64,000 bases of DNA from Craspedostauros australis (lineage: Eukaryota; Bacillariophyta; Bacillariophyceae; Mastogloiales; Achnanthaceae), in contig JAMXDE010000006.1 in the NCBI GenBank assembly GCA_026770025.1, positions 2,548,001-2,612,000 on the forward strand, given 5' to 3'. Position numbers and translations under genes: made by a program. Position 1 is the first letter of the stretch; the number at the start of each line of letters is the position of its first letter. Under the pieces are notes generated by a model that searched no databases, was not told the DNA's origin, and was given only the letters and a program-made list of their open reading frames with translations. Positions 4,662-63,332 of the stretch are shown in pieces.

Positions 4662-7600
4662 TTAGTCCAATGCTGACCTTGGCTGGATGATATCGCCCTT
4701 GTGTCTGTCGTAGATCTCCTTCTTCGTGTTCTTGGTGAACCCGTCTGCGATGTTGTCCTCTGAACGTACGAACCGGGCTCTAGCCTCTCTGTTCGCAATC
4801 AGTTCTCGAATGAAGTGATGTCGTATGTCGATGTGTCTGGTTCGGGCGGATGTGGATGGGTTGGAAGCGATGAAGATTGCTCCCACGTTGTCAACCATCA
4901 CGTCTGCTGGTCTGTGCATCTCCAACCCGATGTCTTTCATCAGTTGGGTGAGGAAGCGGATCTCCTTTCCGGCCTCCGATAGTGCAACGTACTCTGCTTC
5001 CGTTGAGCTCAGTGTCACGCTGCGTTGTGCCTTCGATCTCCAGATGATTGGCAATCCTTGTAGTAGCACGATGTGTCCTCCTACGCTGATGCGATTGTCC
5101 TTGTCGCCAGCGAATTCGCTGTCGGTGTATACGACAATCTTCCATGCATCGTTCTCTAATGGATCCGGCTTCACCCTTAGTCCATATTCTCTCGTGTCCG
5201 ACACGAACTTCATGACCCTTAGCATTTCCTTGTATGCTACGGCTGTTGGTCCATCCAACACCTTGGTCAGTTCGCGTACTGCGTTGGCGATGTCGGGCCG
5301 GGAGTGTTTCACCAAGTATAGCAGCATACCTACTCCACTTCGGTACCTGCTATGCCGATCCTTGTCCACCTTGGGCGAGTCGCTGTCCCTTTGGATGCCT
5401 TGCCCTGGTGTCCCTGGTGTACCGTACCGTTGTAGCTTCATCACGTCGTCCTTGAATGTGTCAGTGATGTTCTTGATGATGTGCGGTTGGTTCACCCAGC
5501 AGTTCGTATGGTCGTGGTTGAATATGATCTTGCAACTGAGATAGTCTTCGAGATCCTCTTCCACCTTGATTCCGAACCGCTCTGCCTTGATATCCCTCAC
5601 TAGCTTCTTCAGTTCCTGTTCCTCTCCGATGCATAAGCAATCGTCAACGTAGGTTCCGATCAGCAGTAGGCTCCCTTCCTGATTCCGAATCAGAAGGCAT
5701 GGATCCACAGCGCTCTGTCTAAACCCCAATTTGAGTAGGATGTCGACCAGCTTCTTGTTCCATTGTCTGGCACTCTGCACGAGTCCATAAATCGTCTTCT
5801 TGAGTAGCAGGCATTCGTCGGCTTCATGCTTCATACCCTTGGGGCATCGCATGTAGATCTCTTCCTCGAGTTCTCCATGTAAGAATGCTGTTTCAAAGTC
5901 GATAATGATGCTGTCCAAGTGTAACAACATCTTCATTGTGAGCATAACGCGGTAGGTTGCGTCGTGTATCACTGGTGCGTGGTGTGCTGAGAAGTCAACT
6001 CCTGCAATCTGCGAGTATCCGCATGCGACGAGTCTTGCACGGAACACACCGTTCCTCTTCTCCTTGAACACCCATTTGGTCTTCACGCATCGCCGATCCT
6101 TCGGCATTTGGTTCATCTTGATCTTCTCCCATACTCCTCTTCTGGCCATATCGCTGAACTCCTTGTTGATGGCCTCCCGCCATTTCGTTCTCTTCTCGGG
6201 ATCTGCATGATCCCAGCACTCCTCGAATGTGGTAGGGTCTAGCATCATTGCGACATTAGCTTGCTCATACCCCTCTTCGAGTGATCGTTGGTCCAATCCT
6301 TGGCTCGCAGTGATGAAGTCGTCGAGTCTCATCTTACCATGAGTAGTATCTATCATCATACCTGCGACGTCTCTGTTGAATGTTGACCAATTCGTGTGGA
6401 AATTCTGTCCTGATGTTGCCAATGGTGTGGTAGTCGTTGTTGGAGTAGTCTCGTTCTCTCCTTCATCTGATTCTGACTCTCCACTGGATCCTAGGTCTCG
6501 TTCCTCCATTGGAATGGGTGAATTGTTGAACCCCGCGAGAGCCTTCAGCATCCTTGGCATGCCTCTAACAGGTGTTGCGACTGGGACCTCGTCTTGATCG
6601 TATGGTCCCTTCTCGTCGTCCCTTCCGGATTCATCGTCGTTATCATCGTACGAATCATCATCCCCTTGGGTGGGGAGCAAGTCATCTTGCCCTTGAGCAG
6701 CGTCTTCTGTATCTACATCAATTCCGGCTCCTCTGCTCTGATCTGCGTCGTCGGTCTCCATTCCCTTGATGGTGTCCTCACGTCGCTCCCAAGTTACTCT
6801 ATTGTTCGGGGAAGGTATCTCCGATGTAGAGTCGTCATCTTCCAGGTCTATTAGTACTGACCTGTTGGCGTTCGCAATACCCTTGAACTGCCCATATGAC
6901 TGGTTCATCCATGTCACGTCTCTCGTGATTAGGATTCTTGTTGTAGCTAGATTCATCATCCGGTACACACCACTAGCATGCGATTGGCCGTATCCGACGA
7001 ACATAGCCGGTTTGGATCTGCTGTCCAGCTTCGCCTTGATTGTTCGTCCTCCGATGTGGACCATACCTATTTCCCCGAATGTACGCAGTCCATCTACGTA
7101 GGTGGGGACCTGTTCGTTGAATAGGATACACGCTGGTTCTCTTGTCTTTGTTCCGATGATGTTCTCCAATTGCGTGGCTGTGCGAGCTGCTTCTGCCCAC
7201 AGCTTACTTCGAGAGCTCTTCGGTAGATGCGTCTGATTCAGCATAGCTCTCACCTTTCCGTATAGTACAGCGAATTTTCGCTCCACGCGACCATTTTGTT
7301 GGGGAGTGGCCGCGGCGGTGTACTCGAAAGTCGGTCCGAATCCAGCGTTAAGTAGTTGCTTCTCCGTGGAGTAATTTTCTCCCGCGTTGTCACATCTCAC
7401 ATTTTTCACGCTCACTTCCTGATTCGCCTGAAGCCACCGTAATAACCCCACCATCTTGGATCCGACGTCGCTCTTTTCTCTCACAAAGAAACTCCAGCAG
7501 TAATCGCTGTAGTCATCGATAACCAGAAGCCAGTATTTGCCTCGGCCGAAACTGTATGTCTGAACACTCGATGTGTCCATGAACAGTCGCTCTCCGACTT

Positions 7601-9098
7601 TCTTTGCTCTTGGCTGTAGAGTCTTCGTCAATCCTCTTTGTCGCGATTTGCCGATCGCGCAATCCACACAAGCGTTCAGTTTCCCTGTGACATTCCATCC
7701 GTATCGTCCCGCAGTGCGAGAGATGGTGTAAGTGTCAACATGGCCTAACATTTTATGAATTTTGTTGATGTCGATCGGTTTCTTCGTCGACACCACGACG
7801 TTGGCTTGATCGTCATGGGCAGGAGCGGCCACCATGTTCACGCCGCTCACAAATCCACTGTGCGTCGCCATGATGCGATCGAAGCGAATGCGTTGTCCCT
7901 TCTTCTCCAAGGACATGATCACACCTCGGTTGCTAATATCGAAACCGTTTTCGAGAGCCTTGTTGATGCTCAAGAGGTTGACCCATAGCTCAGGCACGTA
8001 CTTCACCGACTTGAGGAGGATGATTGCGGTATCGCCATTCTTCTGCATGACCTTCATCCGCTTGTCCCCCACCTTGGTTGCCTTGAGGTATCGACCGCTG
8101 CCTACCTTGATGGAGTGATTCGCTGTGCGCACGTTGATCATACCCTCGTCGTTGTTCGTGAGGTGACAGGAGGCGCCGGAATCTCCCAACCAGGTGTTGG
8201 CCTCGTGGCGGTCGGGTGCGATGGTCGACTTGCGCGTATCGACGTCGTCCAAGTCGCCGATCACCATTGCCATTTCGTGGCCGTTGGCATCGCTGTACGG
8301 TGGTAACTCGCAATGGGTGCGATAGTCACGGACGCCGTTGATGCTTGGGTGGTGCATCCACATCAGCTGTTCCGATGCGATGCTGCTCATTTCTCCGATC
8401 AGCGCCTGTTGGATTGGTTGAAGACGAACACTCTCCAGCATTCCATTCATCCTGTATGCATTCACGCACACGTCGAGTGCACCTCGCACTCCGATTTGGT
8501 GCATCAAGTAGTACAGGGAGCGTGGCTCCACCCCCGTCAATCTGAGGGTTGCAATGTTATGCACTGCCTCGATGCAGATGAGGGAGAGTTCGGACCGGAC
8601 GTCGTTTGGTGAAAGGACGTTGCTCAGCGAGCACCGGGCGGTCACGAACAACATTCCGCTCGTCTCATCTAGCACTTCTCTGCGCACCATCCTTTCGCCT
8701 TCGTTTCTAGGCACGGCACCTCTTGGCTCGTTGGCGAGCTGGATGAAGAAGGGTATGTTCGGGCAGTCCACGCACCATGCGTAGAGAGGCCCTCGCTTGA
8801 GGCACAACGGACACCATCCGTTGTTCATGTCGCGACGCGATGATTGCTCGATCATGTCGTCGAGTGCGCTTGGGCGGGATGGGAGACTATAGACCGGTTC
8901 GTTGATGGCGCGGTCGATGTTGTCGTTGTCGACTCCTGTCATCGCCATCTCCGTTACGTCTGCGTCCTCCTCATCTGTCGTTCCCTCGTGGTACTCTGTG
9001 ACCACATCGTCGGGATCCTCAGCTTCTGCGTCGGATGAAAAGAGCTCGTCTTTGATCATCTCCTCGTCGTTGATAGGGGGCCCGTAGTAACCGTACTC
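4662..9098 (-). CDS. pol: Copia Pol polyprotein (PR-IN-RT-RNase H), joined to gag through a TGA
   Basis: The frame is open for 1478 codons after the gag stop; its first ATG is at 9059, giving 1465 residues. Numbering from that ATG: an N-terminal extension with a CX2C-X9-CX2C cluster (83-99); aspartic protease DSG at 293-295; integrase zinc motif H435/H440/C464/C467; integrase triad D495, D557, E593 with the DDX35E spacing; an acidic linker (about 735-870); reverse transcriptase with a YVDD box at 1137-1140; RNase H with D1313 and E1354. All catalytic residues I can see are present, so it looks functional. Gag and pol share one frame, so a Gag-Pol fusion needs read-through of the TGA, or else pol starts independently at 9059. 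The roughly 290-residue stretch before the protease is long for this superfamily. Confidence 0.95.
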   Translation of the reverse strand, partial: EYGYYGPPINDEEMIKDELFSSDAEAEDPDDVVTEYHEGTTDEEDADVTEMAMTGVDNDNIDRAINEPVYSLPSRPSALDDMIEQSSRRDMNNGWCPLCLKRGPLYAWCVDCPNIPFFIQLANEPRGAVPRNEGERMVRREVLDETSGMLFVTARCSLSNVLSPNDVRSELSLICIEAVHNIATLRLTGVEPRSLYYLMHQIGVRGALDVCVNAYRMNGMLESVRLQPIQQALIGEMSSIASEQLMWMHHPSINGVRDYRTHCELPPYSDANGHEMAMVIGDLDDVDTRKSTIAPDRHEANTWLGDSGASCHLTNNDEGMINVRTANHSIKVGSGRYLKATKVGDKRMKVMQKNGDTAIILLKSVKYVPELWVNLLSINKALENGFDISNRGVIMSLEKKGQRIRFDRIMATHSGFVSGVNMVAAPAHDDQANVVVSTKKPIDINKIHKMLGHVDTYTISRTAGRYGWNVTGKLNACVDCAIGKSRQRGLTKTLQPRAKKVGERLFMDTSSVQTYSFGRGKYWLLVIDDYSDYCWSFFVREKSDVGSKMVGLLRWLQANQEVSVKNVRCDNAGENYSTEKQLLNAGFGPTFEYTAAATPQQNGRVERKFAVLYGKVRAMLNQTHLPKSSRSKLWAEAARTATQLENIIGTKTREPACILFNEQVPTYVDGLRTFGEIGMVHIGGRTIKAKLDSRSKPAMFVGYGQSHASGVYRMMNLATTRILITRDVTWMNQSYGQFKGIANANRSVLIDLEDDDSTSEIPSPNNRVTWERREDTIKGMETDDADQSRGAGIDVDTEDAAQGQDDLLPTQGDDDSYDDNDDESGRDDEKGPYDQDEVPVATPVRGMPRMLKALAGFNNSPIPMEERDLGSSGESESDEGENETTPTTTTTPLATSGQNFHTNWSTFNRDVAGMMIDTTHGKMRLDDFITASQGLDQRSLEEGYEQANVAMMLDPTTFEECWDHADPEKRTKWREAINKEFSDMARRGVWEKIKMNQMPKDRRCVKTKWVFKEKRNGVFRARLVACGYSQIAGVDFSAHHAPVIHDATYRVMLTMKMLLHLDSIIIDFETAFLHGELEEEIYMRCPKGMKHEADECLLLKKTIYGLVQSARQWNKKLVDILLKLGFRQSAVDPCLLIRNQEGSLLLIGTYVDDCLCIGEEQELKKLVRDIKAERFGIKVEEDLEDYLSCKIIFNHDHTNCWVNQPHIIKNITDTFKDDVMKLQRYGTPGTPGQGIQRDSDSPKVDKDRHSRYRSGVGMLLYLVKHSRPDIANAVRELTKVLDGPTAVAYKEMLRVMKFVSDTREYGLRVKPDPLENDAWKIVVYTDSEFAGDKDNRISVGGHIVLLQGLPIIWRSKAQRSVTLSSTEAEYVALSEAGKEIRFLTQLMKDIGLEMHRPADVMVDNVGAIFIASNPSTSARTRHIDIRHHFIRELIANREARARFVRSEDNIADGFTKNTKKEIYDRHKGDIIQPRSALD

Positions 9099-18266: not shown

Positions 18267-21200
18267 TCAGTCTCTACGATCCATGCCGCTCTGGATGTAT
18301 TGCAAGATGGAACCAAAGCGATCGGCAGCAAAGACGGTGTCAAAGCGGTACTTGTGCAGGAAGTCCCTGGCGACATACTCCCAAGTTTCTCGCTCCTGTG
18401 CCTGTTTGGGGTCGACATCGTTTGGTGTGATCTCCATCATCTTGTACGCGTCCTCGATCTCGTCTCGGAATGCCTCGCAGACGAATTCACCCAGCTTGGG
18501 TGGCAGACGGTAGCGAACGACGTATTCCACGCCGAAGAAGGCGATCGTGGCGAACAGGGCCATCGAAACGCTCCCAAGAGCGACGTAGAATGGAAGCTCG
18601 ACAGCAGCGTCGATCTCGTCGTCATACGCTTGGACGGCAAGAGCCCAGGGCAACGAAACAGCGGCGCCAGTTGCCGCTGTCACCCGCAGTGTGGTGAGGC
18701 AGATCTGAGTCATCGTGACCGTCCTGACGAGAGAGATATTCTCCTTCGAGAGGGCAGTGGGCGCCTCGGATACCTTGTTGCCAAGCACGCTCCACAATCC
18801 CAGCAAGATGACTAGTTTGCGCAGCAGGTGAAAGATGGCAAGGACTGCTCCGACAGTGGATGCCAACAGCGCCCATGCACCTGCTTCTTCCACTCTGGTC
18901 GGTCCACCGGCTCTGCCAACGATCCTGGCGATTGAGAAGATCCAGGACGCCGTGAATACGAGGAAGCCCGACATGAACACCAGCGATGCGATTTCGCTTT
19001 CGCGTGTTGCGTGGTACAGCTGGTAAAGATCCTGCACCTTGCGTCGCATGATCTCGCCACCTGCGATCTCCGACAGTTCCTTCGCTTGCATGGCGATGCC
19101 GAGAGACTCTGTTTGGATCGGAGACAGCGGCATGGGGCCCTCCGCCGATGCGCAGCAGAACATGTTGTAGAAGTACCGGACCGCGACGGTGCAGTCCCAG
19201 TGCCAGAATCTGCGCTGCTTGAGGAAACCGAATCGTGTCGGTCCCCGCTGGAGAGAGGTTGCCAAGATCGAGCTGAACCGATTCAACCTGTAGAACAGAT
19301 GGGCTGCTTCGACGCGATGCGTGGAGTTGCTCTTCTCCGATGTGGATGACAGCATCCGCTGCATCTCGTCGCAGCCGCGATGGATGTTAACCAGATGCTC
19401 CTGAACGTACGAGTTCTTGTGATACACTTCAGTGATGAAGTACGTCGTCAGCAGTCGATCGAATTCATCCAAAGCGGTGGGGTCGTTCCTGTTGTGTTTG
19501 AACTCGTTGTACACCTCCACGAAAGACTTCGGGTCTTCTTCGCCGTAGTACTTGACTGCATCGATGAATTTCTGAACCTCCGCGTCCATGTGCGCCAAGA
19601 AAGGGTTGAGCCTCTCCGGTACGCCCTGCCGTTCCGTGTTGCCCATGAGACAGAACGCCGCTTTCTTCACGCCCTGAAATTTGGCGTCGTGGAATACAAT
19701 CCTCGCCTCCTCGTTGCGGATCTTGTACTGAGACACGTTGGCCATGGTGCCGAAGGACAGGACGATACTCAGAGCACCGACGATGGCAGAGATGATCCCT
19801 GCCACATCGTTCCCATCACCCAGAATGTCGATGAGGTTGAATGCGACCGCGCCTGCAGAGAAGGCCGATGCCAGGGTGAGCGAGTTGGCGAAGTTCTGTG
19901 CCTGCACGGCAAAGTCGTCGACGATGGAATCGACGGACTTGGGCTGGACGTAGATGTGGGATGCCATGCGTTTGTTGTACAAAGCCGCCTTGGTTGCGAA
20001 GTCCATGATCTGATCCACGGTGTCCTCCAAGCATTTTGCAACTTCGCAATGATACTCTGCCAATCGAAGAAGTGCGTCATTCTCGATGCCATCGATGTCA
20101 GCCATGAATTCGCTCCAATACATGGCAGCTCCGAGCTCCTGTCGTCTGTGCACCATTTCTTGCTTGCGCTGCAGCAGCGCCTCCTCGAGCCCTGCGCTGG
20201 AAATCGTCTTGTCCGCCTTGACCTCCGCCACGAGCTTGTTGAAGATAATATTCTGCGTGATCTCGTAGAACGAATGTCGGAACATTTCGTTCAGCTCCAT
20301 CCCTTTTGGGATGAGGGAGGCCGCGAACTTGCTCTTCCAATCGTTCGACAGGACCTTTCGCATATCCTGCTTGGTCTCCATGAACTCGATCACCTTGGAG
20401 TGCAGGTAATCGATGCCTTTCTCGTATTCGAATCCTGGTCGAAGAAATCCGTCCCGGCCGTAGTTGGTGCCGCATCCCCTGGTGACGACTTCGCTGTTGG
20501 ACCAGTTGGTTTCTTTCGAGTACGTGCGGAATCGATCTTCGAACGAAGTGCCATGGATTGCTTTCTTGATGAATTCGTTGAACAGCATGGCGTTGATGCA
20601 TGCGCCGGTGAGTCCGCTGTAGCGCATGAAGTGCGGTGTGGACTGCTCATCGCCGACGAAGGCAAACACGTATCCCTTCGCTTCGTTGTTCAGGCGCACG
20701 GTGCGGTAGTTCACGTAGTGGCTGACGGGGAAGGTCGCCAACGCGACTTTGGATTCCTGGTTACCATCGGGGTTCCTCGTCAGATTTCCTTCCCTTCGCA
20801 CCATGGTGTCTCTCTTCATTTTGGAGATGTAGCCTTCGACGTTGCGTGCCAGAATGCGCTTGCGTTCCTTGATGATGACCTCATACATCTCCTGTGGACG
20901 GTCGCTCACGCGGAAGCTTTCTCCGACGGGGAGAGTGGACAGCTCGACATCTTCGTACGAATTGATGATGTAGATCCTTGGTACCCTCTTGCGTGCTCCT
21001 GGGTTGTAGACATCCCCATGCCGAATGGTCTCCAAACAGGCGTCGTACCAGAGGCGGTCGATGTGGTGGGCGAAGACATTCTTCAATCTGTCGATACTCT
21101 TCTTGTGATCGTCCGCCTTGTACTTGAGGCGCAAGCCGGTCACGAGTTCCTCGGCGGTTTCGGTCTTCCAATGTTCATACTCGCGGCAGAACTCCATGCC

Positions 21201-24200
21201 CAGGTAGTAGTTGTCCCCCGTCTCGAAGAATCGCGTTTGGAGAGTCTGTCGTTGGAACGTCGGCGAAAGGTCGGCCAGCAGCTTGGTCGCCTTCACGAGC
21301 TTGGGAAAGACAGGATCGAACTCGTTCAGGTCGTGATATCTGGATTCGTCGGCGAGCTTGGCGAAGTGAAGCTGCCAGTCCGTGTCATCTCTCATGAACT
21401 CGTACATGCGCTTGCAGACGAGCCGCTGGCGGACCATCTTGGTGAAGTCGCCGATGATGCGCGTGTTCTGGTCGTTCGTTGATCGGAAGTCATCCAAGAG
21501 GCCTTGGCCCCATCGCTTCTCGCCGAAGTTGTGCATGCCAAGCGAAATCTTCAATCCCTGAATGCAACAGACGCCGTATGGCTCCTCGGTGGTTGCGGTG
21601 AAGTGGACCTTGGACCCGTTCGGTTTTCTGAGAGGATTGTGTTCGGAATGATTCAGCATACGAGTACATGCGCCATCATGGAAGCGAGCCAAGATGAAGG
21701 ATGGGACAGAGCATGAGTGGAGCGTGCACGATTATTCAATAGTTGGCGTGTGAGTGTCGATGAGCGAGATGGCCGATACAGAGATTGCCGAGAAAGGAGC
21801 AGGCCGCCTCAGAACAGAGGTGCAGCATGCCAGGTACAACGCATTGTCAAGCTTCCGGCCTCAATCCCGAGGTGCACTTACCCGATGCATTCAACAACGT
21901 GTGTGTGGCCGACGTCGAGGCTGAATTTCTCCTTGCGGATAGACTTCATGGCCAGCTCGTCTCGTGCATAGCCACCAGAAAGACCCTTCTGCACGCATTC
22001 CAGAATCACATGGCTGACATCCGCGTGGCGCGAGGTGCCCTTCGGGTAGACCGATGGCAGGTTGTGTGCCGTGGCCTTGAGATCCGACACGCCCTTCTTG
22101 AGGGCGGTGAAAGAGTACGTGCGAGAGATGAGGTCAACTCCTGTGAGCTTGAAGGGTAGCACTGCGCCTTCCAATCGAATATATACGCCGTACTCGACAC
22201 CGATCTTCAGGTCGTCCAGGCCCAATGGCTGTGTGTAGATGAGGTCGGCAACCTTCCAGGACCAATATTCCTTTGACGGGGCGCCATTGGGATCGTGGCG
22301 GCGGAGAATGCGGTCGTCAATCTTCAGCGCATCGCCAAGCTTGATGAGATTGTTCGTTGACAGATCGTAACGGGTCTTCGAGTTGGTGAAACACTGGATC
22401 ACGCCCTTGGACCAAAGCTTGGACACTTCCACATGCAGCATGTTCTCCAGGTCCTTGATCGTGATTTCAACGAATCCTTGGGAGGCTCTGTGTAGGCATT
22501 ATGGTTGTCAGTATCAGAGTGTCCAGGGTACACATGGCGAGACGTGATTGACGTTGGAAATTGTTGTTGTTGTTGGCGGTGGTGGTGACGACAGCGATGG
22601 TACGTGGAATGAACGCAGGCGAGACGAGTGAGATGGCGAAGATCATGAAGCAGTAGATTCGGTTGTAGTGGACACCACATCCACAGCCATACACGCATAC
22701 ACGTCCGCATGCACAACATCAGCAGCATCATTTGAATCCAAGGCATGCGCGATGCAAGAACGAAGCTGAAATGCAAGCGAAAGGCATCATGCCAAATCAC
22801 ATCCACGACACTTACAGTGTATTGCCCAGCTGCGCATCGGTTTCGCCTGACGCAGGGATGAAGACATCCTCGAAACCCGTTCCGAGATGGTACCGCAGCA
22901 TGGCGATCCATCGTGCATCCAACCGAACGATTTGCGCCCGTTCGAATGTCGAACCGCCCTTCGTGAATGCATCTCGTGCTTCGTACAGCTTCATTTTGCC
23001 TCCGCTGACGAGGACGTTCTCGGTGCAGTGGATGGTGGTCATGAGGCCGGTGGGGCCACCTCCGATCACGATCATGGACTGCGGTGGCACCTTAACGATC
23101 TTCGTGCGTGCCAACGCCACCCACTCAGGATCGACCGGCGTGAACTTCTTGTGGCACATGAATGGCTGATATTCCTTCGTTCGCGAGTTGTACGTGAAGT
23201 ACTGCCTGCCTGGCTCCAAGTCTTGCAGTGCCACCTGCACCTGATTCGATCGTTGGACTTCGCGCAGGACATTGAGGCGAGCGTTGTCAAGCTCTTCGCA
23301 GCACAGCTGCGACAGGACCATCAACCGCCGCAACGCGATCCTGAGGTACGTGAATTCCATGAAGGCGTTGTACTTGAACTTCTTGCCTTGCTCAAGTTCC
23401 ATGTACATGTAGGCACGCTGCGCACGCGTGACCGCTTCGGCCACTGGCACGTAGGCTCTGCAGCGCACGGATCCGTTGTGGAGACGAACGAAGCGCTCCA
23501 GGCCGGAATCGACGTGGACGAAGCGATGCAAGTCCCTTCCAGTGACCTTCGCGTCGTAGATGTACGCGGCACGCTTCTCGCCTTCCTCCAGCCAGTACCA
23601 TTCGTCATGCACGACTTCTTCGACGTAGTCGCCCTGCGACAGCTCGCGGATGGCCTCGTTCAGGAACTCGCGACGCATGCCACGCTGCAGCAACGTTTTA
23701 ACACGGCCGAGCAACAGCTGACATGGTCGCGTCTTGACGAGCTTGTTCTTGACGAGTTCCATGAGCGTGCGCTTGTCACGTGGGGTCGTGAGCAGCAACG
23801 CACCGCGGATGCGCCGCTCGCTGACGTTGGGACCTGGGTTCTTTCCCTTGAGGTGATTGATGATGCCCTTCTTCAGGTCTTCATCCGATGGGATCTTCCA
23901 CGCGACCTGCGTCATGAGGTCGTGGCCAAGCCGGATGCCAATCTCGACGGCTGTGACGGCCTGGTACACCTCCTGCGCCTCTTGCTCGATCAATTCGCAC
24001 GCCTGCAGTATGGCGTCCAACCACGAGCGCAGGGGATCGATGACGGATGCCACGCCAGCGCACAGATTGGTGACGATTTTGTCCTGCATGTCGCGCACGA
24101 GGGTCTTGCAGCCATCCGATTTGCTGCTGGGCTGGAGTTCCTGACAGTGCCTGACGAATGGCCCCAGCACGGTGGCGTCCCATCGATTGCGGCCGCGCAA

Positions 24201-26480
24201 CGATGACAGGACGACGCAGACCGCCGGCATGTGGAATCGCATTGCTTCGAAGGGATCCAGCTGTTCCATGCGCTGATGGGCGAAGTTGCCGGACGGTTGG
24301 TCGAGCATGCTGTGCCAATGCCAGGCTACTTGGTACAAGGTGTGGACGACGCCGTTGTTGACCATCGTTGGAATGGGCTGCGCGACGAACGTGCGCAGGA
24401 TAGACTCGTCCGTTGGCAGGCGATGGTCGAGGCGGAATTCGTTCGTTTTGATGCGCCCAAAGTAGGTGCCGTACTGGTTCCTGTTGGCCAATTCGAAGCC
24501 GTTGGATTCCGCGGCCAGGTTCTGCGCGATGGTGGAAGGATTGTCGGTGAGCAATCCTTCGCGGCCCTGCGTGATCACCCTGGTGATCCAGTTGCCGGGG
24601 CCAAGAAGGAGCCTCGTGATGCTGGCCAGCGCATGGTCCCTCGTGGCCGGAAAGTTCTCCGTGGCTGGGAACGAGGTGATGCCCACAAAGGGGAGCTGCC
24701 CCCATCCATCGAACCATCGATTCCACGTGATCTGGGTGTGCCAGTGCCAGAAGAAGTCCCATCGCGGCAGGATGGTCTGCACGAGGATGCGGCTGACGTT
24801 GCGGTTGCTGAAGGCGATTCGCAGGATGTAGTCCACGTCCCTGCGGCTCTCCAGATCCATGGCCTCGATGACCTGTCCCAGGACGTAGGATTCGTAGCCG
24901 GTGAGGAATGGCAGGAAGAGCTGCAGCTGGCGCGTGACACGCGCACCGGACATGGGATCGAAGGTGTTGCAGAGCAAGCGGCGCAAGATGCCACGCCAGG
25001 CTCCGCCGAACGTACCAATCTCGCTGCTGACCTCGAAGTCCCGCACGCTGCCTTCGTACAAGCGTTCGCGCAGAGAAACGGCGCGTTCCGCGAAGAAGAG
25101 GGAATCTTCCTGCGCCGCCGGTGCGGTCGTCTTGGCTGCGGTGACAACGAGCGCACCGGCGTTATCCATCTCCTGGTAACGCTTGGAATCCAGGAAGTGC
25201 TGCTGCGACACGACGATGGATGTTCCGTTCTCGATATCGAGCAGGCGCTTGGGTGCAAAGCTCTGGACGCGGTCCAACGCCTTGACTTCGGGATCGTTGA
25301 GGTTGGTGTAGGTGTCGGCGCGCTGCTGCGACTTCCACGCACCGTAGGAATCGTCGTAGGATGGCAGGGATTCGTTGCTGAGCGTGTGTCCCGATTGCAG
25401 ACGGTGCGAAACTCGGAGACCTGCCACGGGGAGCACCGACAGCCTGACGGTCTTCTTGCCGGCGATGGTGGAGCCCGTGCGATCCAGGAGGGGTGAATCC
25501 TCCTCCGTGCGGCCAATCGGCACGCCGCTCTTCTTGACGCCGTCGCCGCTTCCGAGAGTCTGACGCAGCCTTCCGACGAAGGAGTTGGACTGCTTGATGC
25601 GCTGCTCCTTCTTGGCCGCTGCGGTGGCTGCTGCTGCGCGTGCGGCGCGGCTGCTGTACCTGCTGCCAACGACAACGTCCTCCGCATCCCTCGCCTTAAG
25701 CAGGCTGGGGACGCTGGAGGGCGGCGGTCCTCCTGGCAGACGCGTGCCTGTGGTTCCGGCAGACTGGATGGAGGCGGCAGATGCAACGGTGCTGCCGCCA
25801 TGTTTGTTCCTATTGTTGTTCCTGTTGTTGCTGCTGCTGCCAGTCTGATTGTTTTTGTTGGTCTTGCTGCGTGGGCGCGGGGGTGGCATGATCGGCTGCG
25901 ATGTGACGGCGTCGCTCGTGGCTTGGGGAGAGGCGTTGAGGTTGGCAAAGGCGGACTGAGGTGGGGCGGGACGCATGGAGGTGTCGGAGAGCAGCATCGT
26001 GGAAGATGCCTGGGTCTGTCCCATGCGCGATGACTGGCTGGACCCCAGCGGGGCATTCATCTCGGCAGTCCGGAATGCTCCTCGTGGCGGAGTCTGCGCT
26101 TGAGCTTGAGCCTGCGCTTGAGCCTGAGCTTGGACTTGACGCTGAGCAGGAACAGGAACTCCACCAATGTCTGGCTGGCTGATGGCATCGACCGATGGAC
26201 CCCTGGTGGCAGTTGACATGAGGGAGGCCACGGAAACGGGGGCCTGGATGCTGGAGGATGACTGTCTCTCTTGCGGATCTCGCTGCTGCTGCTGCTGCTG
26301 TTGGCTCATCATCTGGCGGCCTCCGCTGGCAGGCGCGTTGGCTGGCATCCGACCGACGGGCAGAGTGCTGCGGCCAACGGAGCTGTTCAGGTCGATCGTT
26401 GAGAAGCGGTCCTGGTTGCGAGATGGGTCTCCGCGAAAGGCCTCATCATGGAACTCGTCGTTCGAGTGAGAGGACGACAT
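18267..26480 (-). CDS. Giant (2543 aa) MICAL-like FAD-monooxygenase-domain membrane protein
   Basis: Three exons on the minus strand: 26480-22816, 22487-21882 and 21627-18267. The introns (22488-22815 and 21628-21881) have GTAAG donors and CAG acceptors, and the total is exactly 2544 codons including the stop. Residues about 1-380 are low in complexity (Gln, Ala, Ser, Arg). About 450-1130 is an unfamiliar helical region. A Rossmann FAD motif VIGGGPTGL (GxGxxG at 1140-1145) follows, with LYEARD at the end of the next strand. Beyond it are EITIKDLENMLHVEV in exon 2 and FAFVGDEQSTPHF (GD at 1749-1750), which correspond in order and spacing style to the two later flavin motifs of MICAL-type aromatic hydroxylases. 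After about 2005 come five to six hydrophobic membrane segments (about 2007-2052, 2305-2375, 2400-2462). I know no named family with this layout. The flavin role is inferred from motifs. Confidence 0.8.
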
Positions 26481-32910: not shown

Positions 32911-34072
32911 CTTGCTCCTCTTTCTGGTCTTTTCGGTTCCGTTGGGTTTGCGTTTCTTTGTTGGATTGGATTGAGTTGGAGGGTTGGGTTGAGTTGTTTT
33001 GTGTCGTTCTTGGCAGGTGCAGTTGTTGCTCTGCTGTCCTGTTGCCCTTGATGAGGTTGTTGGAGGTGGTGGTTGCGCAGATCGTTGATGGGTTGCGCGT
33101 GTTGAGAGATGGGTGGAAGAAACAACAAAATGCCAAAAACGGGTTGGGTTTGTTGGTTTCGGAAATGTTTGGCTTGGCCGATAACCCGATGGAGATGCGT
33201 TGACTTGTTGGACTGCTTTAATCGTTTTCGAATCGTGACAATCGGTGGCTGGTTTGGGCCTAACTCAGTCATTTCGGTGATTTTCCCAACGGCCGCAACT
33301 GCCACCGTGACGACACCAAGACAAGCAGCGATCCAGGCACTGGGTTTCTTGGTGGGATGTTGGCGCACCGCGTTGTGGTAAACAGCGGTACGAGTGGGGA
33401 ACGGGAGCGAAGCACGAAGAGGCGGCTTCGTCTCCCACCGCGACGGTCATCTTCGTCTGCGTCTTCAGCTGCACCAACATCAGCATCAGCATTGGAAGCA
33501 CGTGTCCAGCGACGATTCCACTGCATCCAACTCGACTTTCCGCGAGCGTTGGACAACCGTCATTCGCGACCATTGTCATCGCTGTCATTGCGACCATCGC
33601 AAGCGCCGCCATTGCCACCATTGTCGCAGGTGCCTGAGCTGACACTTGATCAGAGGAGAAGTACTGCGCTGTCTATTGCAACGGACGCAGAGTCGTCGAC
33701 CTCCGGCTGAACCCCAACATCTGCGGAGACCTCCACAGTTCCATTCATCCATTCATTCATCCATTCGCCCGCTCAATCGCAGTATCTGTAGCAACGGCAG
33801 CAACCGCAGCGAAGGATACATCCAATTGGAATAGGAGCGTATTGGAACATAAAGTATAATACGAGCAAGGAGCAGCAAAGGATTGCGAAGTCTCAAGCTG
33901 AAAATAAGCATTGCACAACAGAACTGGAGAGGACGTGTGCCATTCGACTCCGCGTCATCTGATTCAGTCACTTCTGCGACCACCGCGCCACGTTCAGAGC
34001 GCTACCGTGCAGAGTGGACACTGTGGACACTGTGGACTGTGGAACGCAGAGCAAACAAAAGAAAGACCGAGC
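32911..34072. other. Shared upstream region of PRP19 and the PI4-kinase gene
   Basis: 1162 bp between two divergent starts, with CATT/CCATT-rich low-complexity DNA at about 33740-33770. No gene is recognisable. Confidence 0.5.
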
Positions 34073-37000
34073 ATGTCGCTGACCTCATCCAACTCGCACA
34101 TGGCCGACAGGCACCATGGGATCTGTCAGGGATCGTTGTGGAGGCAGTGCGCAGCATTGTCATCATCTGCTGCCGCGTCGACCTCCTCGGCATCCATGTC
34201 ATCCGTGTCTTCATCGTCTCCCTACAAAAGGGGCACATCAACCTCCGCAAGGAGATCGTCATCCTCGTCCAGCGCCCTGACGTCCATGTCGCCTCACCCA
34301 ACAACCTCCGGTCGCATCAACGAATACTGCGTGTTGGCGGGCGTTCAACTCAGCACGTACGAATCCATGCAGGCATGGGTGCGCGGGGACTATCCTGTTG
34401 CCACCTTCACCATCGTCGGTGCCACATCCGCTAATTCGCTCACCAGCGGCAGCAGGCCCACGTCCTTCCGGCTGGTCACCAACCAGGGCACGCAGGTCAC
34501 CTGCACGGCACCCACAAGGCACTGCAGAGACACGTGGTTGGCAGCCTTCCAGGCCAGCCTCGAAGGCAAACTGCATTCGCTCAATGCATCCACCGATTGC
34601 GACGACGGCGACAACGGCGACGACGACGCGCTCTTGCCCAAGCTAAAACCAAAGCATTACACGCAGACGCCGGCCAGATTTTGCAGATCGTGCGGCAAGG
34701 TGGAGCGGTTGGAGTTTCCGCTGTGCGGCAAGGCAGCGCCTCTTCCTGCCTACGGTCTGGAGGAGCGCTGCGACTTGTGCAAGCACTGTCTCGTCAGCCA
34801 GGGCATGGTGGATCAGGCCAATCACATCCACACGCTCTACGCGTCGGCTTCGTTTGAACTCAACGCCCTGCTCACGGCGAGGCGCCTTCTGTGGGGGCGG
34901 TTGGCCAAGCGGGAGCCGTCCGGCGATATCGCCGACACATCCCAATCCGCAACGACTTCCACTGCCACAACCACGAACGACGACTCGCAGGATGAGGTGG
35001 ATAGATTATCGCTGCACTACAATCAGCGGGAACACCAATGGGTGCCATCGGATACGTCGACGTGGCTCTTTGAGAAGGTGCTGGTGTCGCAAGAGTTTGT
35101 GGCGTGCAAACGGGTGTCGCCGATCCTGGAGAGCCTGTGCCATCAGTACCTCTCGGGCATCATGGGGTTGTTGGAGTTTTTGGAGCAGCTCGATCAGGCG
35201 GTTGGGAGTCGCGAGGGGACGGATTCGCTCAACGAGCTCAAGAAGCAGGCATTCCGCGTCGCCGGAGACATGGGGACGGCGATGAAGATGCTGCAGGAGC
35301 AGGCCGTACCGAATGATACGGCAGGCTCACGATCCTTCACATCAGCGGCATCGCGCAATGGATCAGACGACGCGGCCACCTCCACGGACACGGATCTCCT
35401 GCAATGCATCTTGGAATTCCTTCTGGAATTGGCAGCGGACGGAGAGCTGCAGTCACTGGCCTTCTTCTTTCCGCAGATATGTGCCATCCATCTGCGCATG
35501 CTGCCACCCAGAAATCATGCGGACCTCCTGCGCGTGGAACTGATGGAGGACTTCTTGCTCACGTTGTGCTGTCGGTATTCCATCCAGCTGGGTGTTTCGC
35601 TCATCTGGACGCATCTGGCGGATCTCGATGACGCCTGGACGGCCGTGGAGCGTTCCTTCGCGGCAGGCACCATGAGCAGCACCTTCACATCATCCACCGC
35701 GTCCAGCACGATGTACAACCTTTCGCCCAGCATCCAGCAGGCCTGCAGCCGCCGATTCGCGGTCTTGAGGTTCCTGTGCGAGCTCGAATCGTTGCTCTTT
35801 GACTTTGACAGCGGCTGGGGTGGCGGATCCGTCACGGTCGGCCATCTCATCCAACCGTCCAAACACCAGGTGGCCCTCCTCAAGGGCACCGTGAAACGGA
35901 TACAACGGCTTCGCGTGGAGAATCACAAATCGCGTGGACTCTCCCAATCTGTGCGTATGGACAAGCTCAGGAATGTCAAACAGACGCTGCCTCCCGAGAT
36001 GATGGCCGAGGAGGCCTTGCGCGTGACCAAGAACGCCGACTATCTGTCCTCCCATCTCGTCTTCACGAAACGCCTGTGCGACATCGCGGAGAAGCTGAGA
36101 TTCATGAACGTCGACGATCGCAAGGGTGCGCTGCAGAGCGAACTGAATCGCCTCAACGCATCGGGCAGCATGGGCGGTGATCCGCTGAACACCATCAGCT
36201 CCAGCCTGTCGCGTGTCGTGCGCATTCCATCCAAGGAGGGTCACGTGTTCAGGTCCAAGGAGCGCACGCCTGTCCTGCTGCTGGTGGAAATCTTGGACGA
36301 AGGCGTGCAGTTTGAAGTCGAGGCACAAGAGCGAGAACAAAAACGACAGACCATGATATTGAAACAGAAGGACAAGCTGCGGGCGACGACGGCGGGGACG
36401 TCAGGATCCAGCAATGGTGAGATCGAGGAACAAGAAGAAAAGAAGGGTGACGAATCGACGGCTGTCACTGCGGCAGAAGCTGCCAAAATTGATGCAGAGG
36501 CAGCGAGCGAACACACGGAGCCCACCAAGGATGAAAGTGACTTGGCGGAGGAAGATTCGCCTGCAGAACAAACAGAACAAGTGTGTGAAGCTAAGGAGGA
36601 AACAAAGCACGAAGCCAAGACTGATGGCATTGCTGATGGTGATGATGAAGACGAAGACGATGAGGAGGACAAGACGACAGAACTCAAATCATCTGCGGAG
36701 TCTGAAGATGAGGAGTTCCACTCCGCTGCAGGATCCATCAACGAAGACATTGCTCAGAGCGAGCTGGAAACCCCACGGCCGCAGCCCAAAGTCGTGGTGA
36801 AGATTGACAGCAGATCGGAACTGGAGGGATCCATCACGGAGACCGAAGAGAAGGAATCGAATCGTAAGTGTCTGCGTGCTGCGCTGTTCCGCGAATGTCG
36901 AGTGGGAAGAAAAGGTGAAAGGACGCAGTGATCTTGAGTTTGAGCTTCATGTCATTGCGATCAGTGTAAAAGGGCGCATATGAGCAAACGTGTGCACAAG

Positions 37001-60170: not shown

Positions 60171-60734
60171 TACACATTGTGGTTCCGAAGACGAACATTG
60201 GCCCTCCTTCGCGTTGTCGCCATCCCGCGAATGACTTTTCGCGCTTGCAGCAACTTGGTTACGCCCCTTTGACATCGGCCATTGTTACAGTTTGTACGGG
60301 GAACAGTACACCATTCTTGGGCACCGGTGTCTTTCGCCACGGACAGGAACACAAAAAACACTTCAAGCCAATGCAAGCATCTCTTGACATTTCTTTTCTG
60401 ATGTTCAGATGGCCGCGAACTACAATCGTTGTACGTGTGTGTGCAAGACACCAACACGCGTCACCAGCGCATGTAATGCGTCGTCGGCAAGAAATTGCTG
60501 CGATGGTTGTTTGCTCGTTGCAAAGCACAGCATCTTCCATGTCCTTGGCAACCACACAGCAGCACCCCATGGCCAACTCTGCAAATGAGGACGACACAAA
60601 CCGCATCACGCCAACGTACACACATCCATTGCGCCAAACACTGCTGCTCTCTTGCAGGTGCACTTCAATGGAGCCTTGAGTTGAGCAGAGGTGCCCTTTG
60701 TCACACAAATCAGAAACACAACCAACCACCGATC
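60171..60734. other. Upstream region of the 801-residue ORF
   Basis: 564 bp between the 48-bp array and the chosen start codon. The frame of the following gene is open back to about 60495 but without a better ATG. Confidence 0.45.
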
Positions 60735-63332
60735 ATGACGCCACCAAGGAAACGAGCCCCTCGCTTCTTGAAAAAGGGAGTCGACGCCAAGCTCCTCATC
60801 CGTGAGCTTGCAGCTGATCCCAACTTGTGGATGTGGGAGCCTCGCCACATCCGAGACAAGTATCCGACCCTCGCAAAGTATCCAGCAAAGAACTTCATCA
60901 AAGGGTATGTGATGCTGAAGAAAACGCTCGTGAAGAACAAGATCTTCTTTGGTAAGTCAACTCCAATGCAGGCAACGTGTGGGCCCGACCACTCGGTGGA
61001 CACATTCGTTTGGGGTGGTGGCGATTGCCCTGTTGCATTTCTTGTCCTCAAACTTTGCTTTGATCATGCTGCACAAACACATCACAACTCACAAGCAACC
61101 ACTCGATCTCTTCATCTGTTTGCTTTTGTGAGGGTGTTGGCAGCAAATGGACGCTTCAATCCAGACGCATCAGGTAACTTGGCCATGCATCTTCGCCCCA
61201 TCGATGAGCCAGAGGGCTTCGACAACACAAAGCCCTCGAAATCTCCTCCTGCAAAGTCCGTCGCAGAAACCACAACAACACCCACAATGACAGCACTCTC
61301 CGAAAACGCTGCCACCAACACAGACAAGAGCTGCCATGGAGAAGGGGATCAAAACCCATCTTCGCAAATGGCATCAAGCACCAATGGGTCGGTCCCAAAT
61401 GTTGCCTTCCTCAATGATGACTGGGCCATGGGCGACTTTGGCGAGGAAATTTCATCAGTGTTTGGTCGAGAAATGGACTTCGATGATGACATTGAAGTTG
61501 TGGGCATGACAGGCCCTCCACCATACAACTCACTGACAGCAAGATATGGTCATTTCTTTGACATGGCCGAGAACTCTCGCGTCGCCCAGTTCTCTTCCGT
61601 CCCAACACATGTGGACGTCTTCTACACTACGCAATTGTGGAGGCCGAAGGGAGAGGCATTCCGGATGATCAGCATCGACTTCTACATGCCTGCAGCCACC
61701 ATCCAGCAGGATACACAGCTGACCATTCAATATCGCGAAGTGGGTGGGGTGCCTCGGCCCTTTGTGGTGCTGAAGTATCGGCCTCCAGTGGCCATTGGGG
61801 CAAAGGGGGGTATTGCAAAGGCCATTTGCAACCTTCAGGCGACCCACTTCGTCGACGCAGCACAGAAGGCACAAGCACACGACCTGCAAATGCAGAAGGC
61901 CGGTTTTGCAAAGGGGCACTGGTGCGAAATGCTCGTGCCGATGCCTTTTGCTATCGACACCATGTTCTGCCCATCCGCTTGCGGCACGCTGGGGGGCGTT
62001 GTCTGGCTCAATCATGTGATGCCAGACAACAATGGGCAACCACGTAAAGTCCTCATCTTGTCGACGAGGGTGAAGGAGAAGACAACGACTGTGGGAATGA
62101 CGTGCAAGTTTTCAAAAATGCACGCACTTGGTTTCAACTCAGGCGGAACCAATGCCATCGACAAAGGGGCCAAGTCACAAATGCTACCTTCACAGTCACA
62201 CAGAATCCCCCAATACACGGACAACAACAGCAACTCCAGCAACCCGCCATCTGCCAGCAATGCCCAGAAGGTGACCCCATGGCCACAACCCTTACAACCC
62301 AGGAGCCCAATGGGCAGCCGCATTCAATCACGCTTCCGATCGGCAAGAACGACAAAGAATCTCCGCACCTTTGGAGCACGCAACATGCTTCATGGAGACG
62401 ATCAATCAGTCACGACGCAGGTGACTCAGGTGTTGGAAGCCCAACTCGAATGCCAGGTTGAGAGGGTGGCCGAACTTGAGCTGAGGGTGGCACTGCGAAA
62501 GCAGGCTGCCAGAGAAAGGGCAGAGCTGAGACGGCAAGGACAGCTCAACCAGAGCCGTCCGGGAATGGTGGTGACTGGCGGTACAGCTTCTGACGAGGCT
62601 GCCAGAAACCTTCCTGATGGCGTCTTCAACAAAATGGACGACCTCACCAGACCGTATTTCGTAAAGGGCCCAGGATCAGTCCAGCACCCGGCAATGATGC
62701 AGAATGGTCAGACTGGGACGGGCAACATGCACTCGACGAATCCGCAGCAACTCAGCACAGGACAGATCCTTCCGCACGGACGGGAGGAAGGAATATCGGC
62801 AACAACAACAGCTCAGATGTCTCCTCCACCAACACGAGATGTTGATCCATGTGAAGGAATGCTGGTCCTTGCGGACCAAGCCAACAAACTGACAGAGGCA
62901 GCAGCGGTGGGAGCAGCAGCAGCAGAAGCAACCAACCTTGCAACTGCAACAACCACCATCACAGCGGGGTCCACAGCTGTAAATACGAATCAGAATCCGG
63001 AAGGAGAGAATGTGAGGCAATCCGCAGGCAGTGCAGGCGCTCAGATGACCAGTCAGGAGGCGCCAAACCAACCTGAAGGCGGAGGGGATGGGCCAACAAC
63101 CAACTACTCCTTGGTCGAAGATGTTGAGATAGTGCAGGACCCAACAGCACCATTGAATGCTGCAGAAGCACCATTGAATGTTGATGAAGCACCATTGAAT
63201 GTTGATGAGGCACCATTGAATGTTGACGAGGCACCATTGAATGTTGACGAGGCAATGGACATGACCGGAGATGGAGAGAGGCAGGGTGACAATGGAGGCA
63301 GTGACGGAAACGAGCATGACACAACAAACTAA
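60735..63332 (+). CDS. 801-residue protein of unknown family, possible second gene of the Harbinger-type element
   Basis: Proposed exons 60735-60951 and 61144-63332, with a 192-bp intron (GTAAGT...GGCAG) whose length is a multiple of three; without splicing the frame is also open. The start MTPPRKRAPRF is basic. Residues about 15-70 (KLLIRELAADPNLWMWEPRHIRDKYP and on) form a short aromatic and basic domain that could bind DNA; it is not a recognisable Myb/SANT domain. About 245-470 is a folded-looking, unfamiliar domain (DVFYTTQLWRPKGEAFRMIS, FVVLKYRPPVAIG, VVWLNHVMPDN). A Gln/Arg-rich helical stretch (about 540-590) and low-complexity sequence follow, ending in five 7-residue repeats APLNVDE. 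Its position, divergent to the transposase, fits the two-gene layout of PIF/Harbinger elements. I do not recognise the family. Confidence 0.6.
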   Translation: MTPPRKRAPRFLKKGVDAKLLIRELAADPNLWMWEPRHIRDKYPTLAKYPAKNFIKGYVMLKKTLVKNKIFFGKSTPMQATCGPDHSVDTFVWGGGDCPVAFLVLKLCFDHAAQTHHNSQATTRSLHLFAFVRVLAANGRFNPDASGNLAMHLRPIDEPEGFDNTKPSKSPPAKSVAETTTTPTMTALSENAATNTDKSCHGEGDQNPSSQMASSTNGSVPNVAFLNDDWAMGDFGEEISSVFGREMDFDDDIEVVGMTGPPPYNSLTARYGHFFDMAENSRVAQFSSVPTHVDVFYTTQLWRPKGEAFRMISIDFYMPAATIQQDTQLTIQYREVGGVPRPFVVLKYRPPVAIGAKGGIAKAICNLQATHFVDAAQKAQAHDLQMQKAGFAKGHWCEMLVPMPFAIDTMFCPSACGTLGGVVWLNHVMPDNNGQPRKVLILSTRVKEKTTTVGMTCKFSKMHALGFNSGGTNAIDKGAKSQMLPSQSHRIPQYTDNNSNSSNPPSASNAQKVTPWPQPLQPRSPMGSRIQSRFRSARTTKNLRTFGARNMLHGDDQSVTTQVTQVLEAQLECQVERVAELELRVALRKQAARERAELRRQGQLNQSRPGMVVTGGTASDEAARNLPDGVFNKMDDLTRPYFVKGPGSVQHPAMMQNGQTGTGNMHSTNPQQLSTGQILPHGREEGISATTTAQMSPPPTRDVDPCEGMLVLADQANKLTEAAAVGAAAAEATNLATATTTITAGSTAVNTNQNPEGENVRQSAGSAGAQMTSQEAPNQPEGGGDGPTTNYSLVEDVEIVQDPTAPLNAAEAPLNVDEAPLNVDEAPLNVDEAPLNVDEAMDMTGDGERQGDNGGSDGNEHDTTN
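63161..63253 (+). repeat. 21-bp in-frame repeats encoding APLNVDE
   Basis: GCACCATTGAATGTTGATGA-type units repeated about four and a half times near the end of the 801-residue ORF. The in-frame unit length and synonymous changes (GAT/GAC, GAA/GAG) suggest the repeats are translated. Confidence 0.85.

Follow-up and report, generated by a model that had tools for sequence, protein, structure and literature searches.

Introduction

The locus described here raises the question of whether a single diatom gene can join a flavin-dependent oxygenase resembling the MICAL proteins to a polytopic membrane tail. It occupies positions 18267-26480, on the minus strand, of a stretch of 64,000 nucleotides from Craspedostauros australis (hereafter the window; GenBank assembly GCA_026770025.1, contig JAMXDE010000006.1, positions 2,548,001 to 2,612,000), which lies in contig 4 of an own genome of 74.8 Mb in 90 contigs. 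MICALs, which have been studied mostly in animals, are known as cytosolic enzymes and disassemble actin filaments through oxidation, and an initial annotation, made from the letters of the DNA alone, had described the locus as a giant MICAL-like flavoprotein with a membrane tail. Taken together, the gene model, a class A flavin monooxygenase (FMO) domain and a tail with five predicted spans indicate that the product is probably a membrane-anchored diatom monooxygenase. In our judgement the protein is MICAL-like and not a MICAL, and the ranking of MICAL over enzymes of the p-hydroxybenzoate hydroxylase (PHBH) type is uncertain.

Gene model

Three minus-strand exons, separated by two GT-AG introns in phase 2, join into 2543 codons without an internal stop. 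Exon 1 (22816-26480), whose earliest in-frame ATG is at position 26480, encodes residues 1-1222 with codon 1222 split by the join; exon 2 (21882-22487) encodes residues 1222-1424, and exon 3 (18267-21627) residues 1424-2543 and the stop codon. Intron 1 (22488-22815) has 328 bases and reads GTAAGTG...CACAG, and intron 2 (21628-21881) has 254 bases and reads GTAAGTG...CTCAG. These limits, the joins 22816/22487 and 21882/21627 and the sum of 2543 codons are the same as those first proposed.

The coding signal follows this structure. Codon usage was scored with six other long frames from the window as the training set, one of them a Copia-type retroelement at 4662-9098; the score was above zero in frame for nearly all 50-codon blocks of the exons, the exception being one block of the leader (-0.01), and fell below zero in all three frames of the introns; third-position GC was 72-77% in all three exons. 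A 710-codon open frame on the plus strand (19350-21482), antisense to exon 3, is taken as a by-product of codon bias and not as a gene. In our judgement the computed model of a single giant gene, encoding a protein of 2543 residues, is real.

Bacterial relatives of the enzyme domain

The enzyme domain was placed through bacterial relatives, which were collected by scanning a degenerate pattern, GDxxxTPHFxxx[ST]G, over the genomes of 84,980 species of bacteria and archaea. Six of the 36 stretches returned were accepted as relatives, and 30 were left out on context, including L030, a 40-residue frame with a phmmer value of 0.015. Compared with the window protein by phmmer (E values for 36 sequences), L045 from Endozoicomonas acroporae scored 4e-11, L035 (Bacteriovoracaceae) 2e-6 and L016 (Endozoicomonas) 6e-5; L026 (Chlamydiae) and L033 and L028 (both Legionellaceae) reached only 0.03-0.06 and were included on their motifs. 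The seventh member of the resulting profile, L049, is a second Endozoicomonas gene that was found with L045.

Against the spliced protein, the seven-sequence profile gave an E value of 9.7e-17 (Z set to 1e6) in three collinear pieces, at residues 1136-1247 (29.7 bits), 1405-1575 (8.0 bits) and 1727-1779 (24.4 bits). The first two pieces are independent of the motif by which the relatives were picked, and both cross exon joins, the first at codon 1222 (intron 1) and the second, a weak match, at codon 1424 (intron 2); hhalign gave a probability of 98.7% across the join of exons 1 and 2. Shuffling the protein 200 times gave no copy that the profile reported. Among the 578 six-frame frames of the window with at least 60 codons, searched at E values up to 1000, it reported only those of exon 1 (19.3 bits) and exon 3 (34.5 bits), the exon 2 frame alone going unreported, and splicing raised the score to 66.5 bits. 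A profile of the Endozoicomonas rows alone matched with an E value of 5.8e-9, and one without these rows with 2.7e-6; the latter also reported exon 1 alone at 64 and one unrelated frame at 670.

Residues from about 1130 to 1840 are homologous to bacterial class A flavin monooxygenases. In the bacterial proteins (L045, L049 and L016 from Endozoicomonas, L035 from Bacteriovoracaceae, L026 and L047 from Chlamydiae, L033 and L028 from Legionellaceae) the motifs stand in the same order as in the window protein; the GD...TPHF...SG motif is almost identical in six of seven, and the R/E pair of an RxF...YxGxE stretch is shared. Identity between the window protein and the five bacterial proteins aligned with it is 19-22%, and the bacterial domain is shorter. 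None of the five bacterial proteins tested has a hydrophobic C-terminal tail, and L047 has a hydrophobic segment at its N-terminus.

Of the three matches returned when L045 was searched against the whole own genome (about 75 Mb), the best was exon 1 (3.1e-4), followed by exon 3 (0.055). The third, on G000:C47, was rejected as a different flavoprotein that has only the generic Rossmann start in common. This frame of 1277 residues (L082, G000:C47:355163-358993, minus strand) has a hydrophobic N-terminal stretch, an FAD-type GxGxxG start (VAIVGAGPSGLFLA; FAD, flavin adenine dinucleotide) and a long acidic, Tyr-rich insert. A class-wide search with the bacterial profile matched 198 of 274 genomes, and among the matches listed most cover the generic Rossmann start only; those in G185:C4, G044:C1, G096 and G217 align with the C-terminal half and are possible further members. 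None of these loci was used in the profile. Five scans of viral contigs gave no relative, two pattern matches in such contigs being due to chance, and a scan of genome contigs with a steered alignment returned 44 stretches and no relative. Neither plasmids, queried with a portion of exon 3 and L045, nor phages, queried with L026, gave a match.

Residues of the enzyme domain

The domain begins at about residue 1130, behind roughly 1100 other residues, and VIGGGPTGL, LYEARD and the other motifs named at that time occur in the order given for them. All coordinates in this section are on the minus strand. The GxGxxG motif for the ADP part of FAD, GGGPTG (G1140-G1145; 23046-23063), is evident from the sequence and from the alignments. 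In YEAR (residues 1166-1169; 22974-22985), the acid E1167 stands at the end of strand 2 and R1169 is invariant in alignment A3, as is R1181 of FERAQIVRL (residues 1179-1187; 22920-22946); within the latter, Q1183 falls in the column of the MICAL Asn (RNNVLHL in MICAL3, RHNVLHL in MICAL1). Further along the alignments, RFFETGDNYYLGMEF (residues 1556-1570; 21189-21233) contributes R1556 and E1569, which are likewise invariant in A3.

The second FAD motif, VGDEQSTPHFMRYSGLTGA (residues 1748-1766; 20601-20657), contains the GD....P pattern as G1749, D1750 and P1755, followed by H1756 and F1757. A review describes Trp400 of MICAL as stacking on the flavin (PMC3645671); F1757 sits at the position of this Trp and is still aromatic, in a part where the MICAL alignment is weak. 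The central DG-type motif is weak, reading VVECIGKPNGSK against VICAGGKHSQLR in the bacterial proteins, with a G retained and the D absent. Relative to the bacterial domains, the window protein has long insertions at about residues 1254-1345 and 1600-1720.

Membrane tail and protein front

Five to six membrane spans had been claimed for the tail. By hydropathy, eight overlapping segments combine to give five predicted spans, each with a value above 1.5. All lie within residues 2007-2462, none being listed earlier in the protein. Segments 1 and 2 (peaks 2009-2027 and 2032-2050; 19749-19874, minus strand, as for all features of this section) could form a hairpin and are followed by segments 3 and 4 (peaks 2303-2321 and 2341-2367; 18798-18992) and segment 5 (2432-2457; 18528-18605).

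The stretch from about residue 1840 to residue 2543 (18267-20382) has, by DNA comparison, at least one decayed second copy in the own genome (G000:C39:375389-377522), which is broken into five pieces of shifting frame with two internal stops and has 67.5% identity over 2163 columns, the similarity ending at the stop codon. Over 699 codons, tail and copy differ at 222 first, 159 second and 325 third codon positions. With a low-complexity block that belongs to a neighbouring leucine-rich repeat (LRR) gene excluded from the count, the nonsynonymous divergence (dN) is 0.32 and the synonymous divergence (dS) 1.11 over 696 codons, dS being high and the blocks being those that tblastn could align. 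That dN is lower than dS suggests that the tail was once under selection at the protein level. Close to its start, the LRR gene (G000:C39, L006:2503-5886), just downstream of which the copy lies, encodes a hydrophobic segment; it also carries a long Pro-Thr/Ser repeat.

The front of the protein consists, by composition and hydropathy, of a low-complexity leader that is rich in Q, S, A and P and has no hydrophobic segment (residues 1-440; 25161-26480), followed by a region without a family match (residues 440-1120; 23121-25163). Compared with the N-termini of the Endozoicomonas proteins, residues 440-1120 scored no better than five shuffles, and no relative was found; exon 1 residues from about 361 to 1222 and exon 2 gave no further match in the own genome at an E value of 10.

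Placement among class A monooxygenases

Most of the lists obtained through the bacterial relatives are led by MICALs. When the PDB was searched with a profile of four bacterial rows, MICAL chains filled the top five of 315 matches, and they filled the top five of 101 matches when the profile held five bacterial rows and the window protein. With the AlphaFold2 model of L026, which was built with five relatives, the first eight Foldseek matches were all MICALs (E 6e-11 to 1e-9), closely followed by halogenases and further enzymes of class A; an AlphaFold2 model of L045 (949 residues, without an alignment) had a predicted local distance difference test (pLDDT) value of 37.4 and was too low for use. 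The Foldseek and VIA-align lists for the L026 model are made up mostly of class A monooxygenases, with TM-scores under 0.55. Its top viral fold match is a giant-virus protein in the BFVD, the putative ORFan A0A6N1NUP4 from Tupanvirus deep ocean (604 residues; E 1.2e-11, TM-score 0.40, root-mean-square deviation 12.6), a comparison made with the bacterial relative and not with the window protein.

With MICAL1 and MICAL3 (2bry, 2bra, 4txi, 6ici, 8y6k), which oxidise methionines of F-actin, the window protein shares a class A monooxygenase domain with the GxGxxG motif, an R-x-[NQ]-[VI]-[LV]-x-L stretch that follows strand 2, and GD....P. Unlike them it has about 1100 residues ahead of the domain, five hydrophobic spans behind it and no reported CH, LIM or bMERB domain, and the domain itself has about 700 residues as against about 480-500. 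CH, LIM, bMERB and Rossman_Mical (PF25413) all went unreported when the three exons and residues 1081-1980 of the spliced protein were scanned against Pfam at E values up to 10, and Rossman_Mical found no match in the own genome, as was also the case in control genomes. The initial flavin-monooxygenase reading is retained. MICAL leads three of the list searches, although through bacterial go-betweens only, and the protein is MICAL-like and not a MICAL: the domains typical of MICALs and Rossman_Mical are missing from the scans, and a Phe replaces the Trp. PHBH and the FAD_binding_3 enzymes belong to the same fold class, PHBH being soluble and having about 390 residues. FAD_binding_3 (PF01494) and the MICAL monooxygenase domain had been put forward as the families to look for, and neither gave a direct match to the window protein; among its bacterial relatives, L026 with 41 bits and L035 with 25.3 bits do pass the PF01494 cut-off of 22 bits.

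Several results weigh against reading the locus as a membrane-anchored class A monooxygenase with MICAL-like affinity. Searched directly, the spliced protein and its exons reached no Pfam cut-off, the best E values (0.07 to 0.11) belonging to generic Rossmann models, and no NCBIfam cut-off (0.02-0.15); in the PDB, phmmer returned only unrelated matches (0.75 and 1.5). As the bacterial seeds were selected by the window's own GD motif, the third profile piece is not independent, and the middle piece brings only 8 bits; in the genome search with L045, exon 3 barely beats an unrelated flavoprotein (0.072). L045 itself, at 19.8 bits, falls below the FAD_binding_3 cut-off. The MICAL matches of both PDB profiles lie largely within the opening 60 or so positions, and the MICAL alignment of the second-motif piece scores only 1.8-2.5 bits. 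The L026 model is middling (mean pLDDT 61.6, predicted template modelling score 0.59), and its eight MICAL matches in Foldseek have TM-scores by query of 0.39-0.45 and root-mean-square deviations of 8.7-10.9. A PDB search with L026 alone placed NCR and NfnA on top and MICAL towards the bottom of the 60 matches listed (E 0.073). The central motif THVVECIGKPNGSK is weak, the decayed copy is without the enzyme domain, and the spans are predicted from hydropathy, a measure that also picks out part of the Rossmann fold in L035 (1.84). The L026-alone search and the Foldseek scores weaken the ranking of MICAL and for this reason slightly lower our confidence in the overall reading.

The strongest alternative is that the protein hydroxylates or epoxidises aromatic compounds, quinones or lipids as a membrane-bound enzyme of the PHBH or squalene-epoxidase kind; its nearness to MICAL would then reflect the shared class A fold only. 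For the L026 model, the VIA-align Z values of MICAL (20.6) and PHBH-type enzymes (20.1) amount to a tie, and the search with L026 alone does not put MICAL ahead; squalene monooxygenase, which is membrane-bound, appears in both the PDB-profile and the fold lists, and the change from the MICAL Trp to Phe points the same way. Set against this are the leading places of MICALs in both family-profile lists and in Foldseek, as well as the Pfam scans, in which the window protein matched no squalene-epoxidase family. We regard this explanation as a real possibility, at somewhat less than even chances.

A degenerate, flavoprotein-like scaffold that has kept the FAD fold and lost catalysis would fit the weak central motif and the long insertions. 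Such loss does occur in the wider family: in the Endozoicomonas paralogue L049 (G001:C110), both the GD and the TP of the second motif are altered, GD..TPHF..SG reading GE..SDHF..GN, perhaps as a decayed flavin site. In the window protein, however, GxGxxG is intact, as is the second motif over its full length (GD..STPHF...SGLTGA), and we consider the loss of catalysis unlikely. That two or three separate genes were wrongly joined, with tail and enzyme as different proteins, is suggested by the tail-only decayed copy, which begins just behind the enzyme domain, and by a start that exon 3 could possess of its own, but is highly improbable given that both introns are phase-consistent and that the enzyme domain covers all three exons and ends within exon 3, in frame with the tail.

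Proposed function

As a membrane-anchored monooxygenase, the protein would consist of the leader (1-440), the region without a family match (440-1120), the FMO domain with its long insertions (about 1130-1840) and the five-span tail (2007-2462). The enzyme part is taken as cytosolic because the N-terminus has no hydrophobic targeting segment. By analogy with its family, the domain would bind FAD and accept a hydride from reduced nicotinamide adenine dinucleotide phosphate (NADPH), and the reduced flavin would react with O2 to form a C4a-hydroperoxyflavin. A substrate may then be oxidised, or H2O2 released, at the cytosolic face of the membrane at which the tail would hold the enzyme.

Because most of the lists are headed by MICAL, we slightly favour a protein as the target over a small molecule or a lipid. 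The one actin gene of the own genome that was read keeps the Met pair of the D-loop (GIMVGMEQRD); as actins generally keep this pair, it is a weak hint of MICAL-type actin oxidation. The more specific proposal, a MICAL-type protein oxidase of diatoms, from a MICAL-like lineage shared with host-associated bacteria and fixed in the membrane by the polytopic tail, so that the redox cutting of actin or the oxidation of another cytoskeletal protein would be confined to one surface (that of the plasma membrane or the silica deposition vesicle, for example), appears quite doubtful to us. As far as these searches show, the arrangement is new, and none of the titles listed in searches of the open-access literature concerns a MICAL-like enzyme that is anchored in a membrane or comes from a diatom.

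Genomic surroundings

Four of the six other long frames of the window match Pfam families, namely an EamA transporter, a formyl-transferase with an ACT domain, UPF0047 and the Copia-type retroelement, the last being a polyprotein (RVT_2) on the minus strand. Two plus-strand frames, at 33908-36931 (1007 codons) and 60477-63332 (951 codons), had no Pfam match at 0.001. Elsewhere in the own genome, four actin genes with nearly the same score (452.4 to 453.8 bits) stand in alternating orientation within 13.5 kb (G000:C6:1241609-1255120). The Pfam silicon transporter family has 88 places, 32 of them nearly full length (at least 483 of 513 model positions), and 28 of these 32 are without an internal stop; diatoms usually carry far fewer copies. 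In our judgement these transporters confirm that the DNA comes from a diatom.

Implications

The case shows that a domain invisible to direct Pfam search can be placed through bacterial go-betweens. Its relatives in Endozoicomonas, Chlamydiae, Legionellaceae and Bacteriovoracaceae would hint at an older and wider family that current domain libraries miss. If true, the presence of a MICAL-like oxygenase within a diatom membrane protein would bring this chemistry to an algal lineage.

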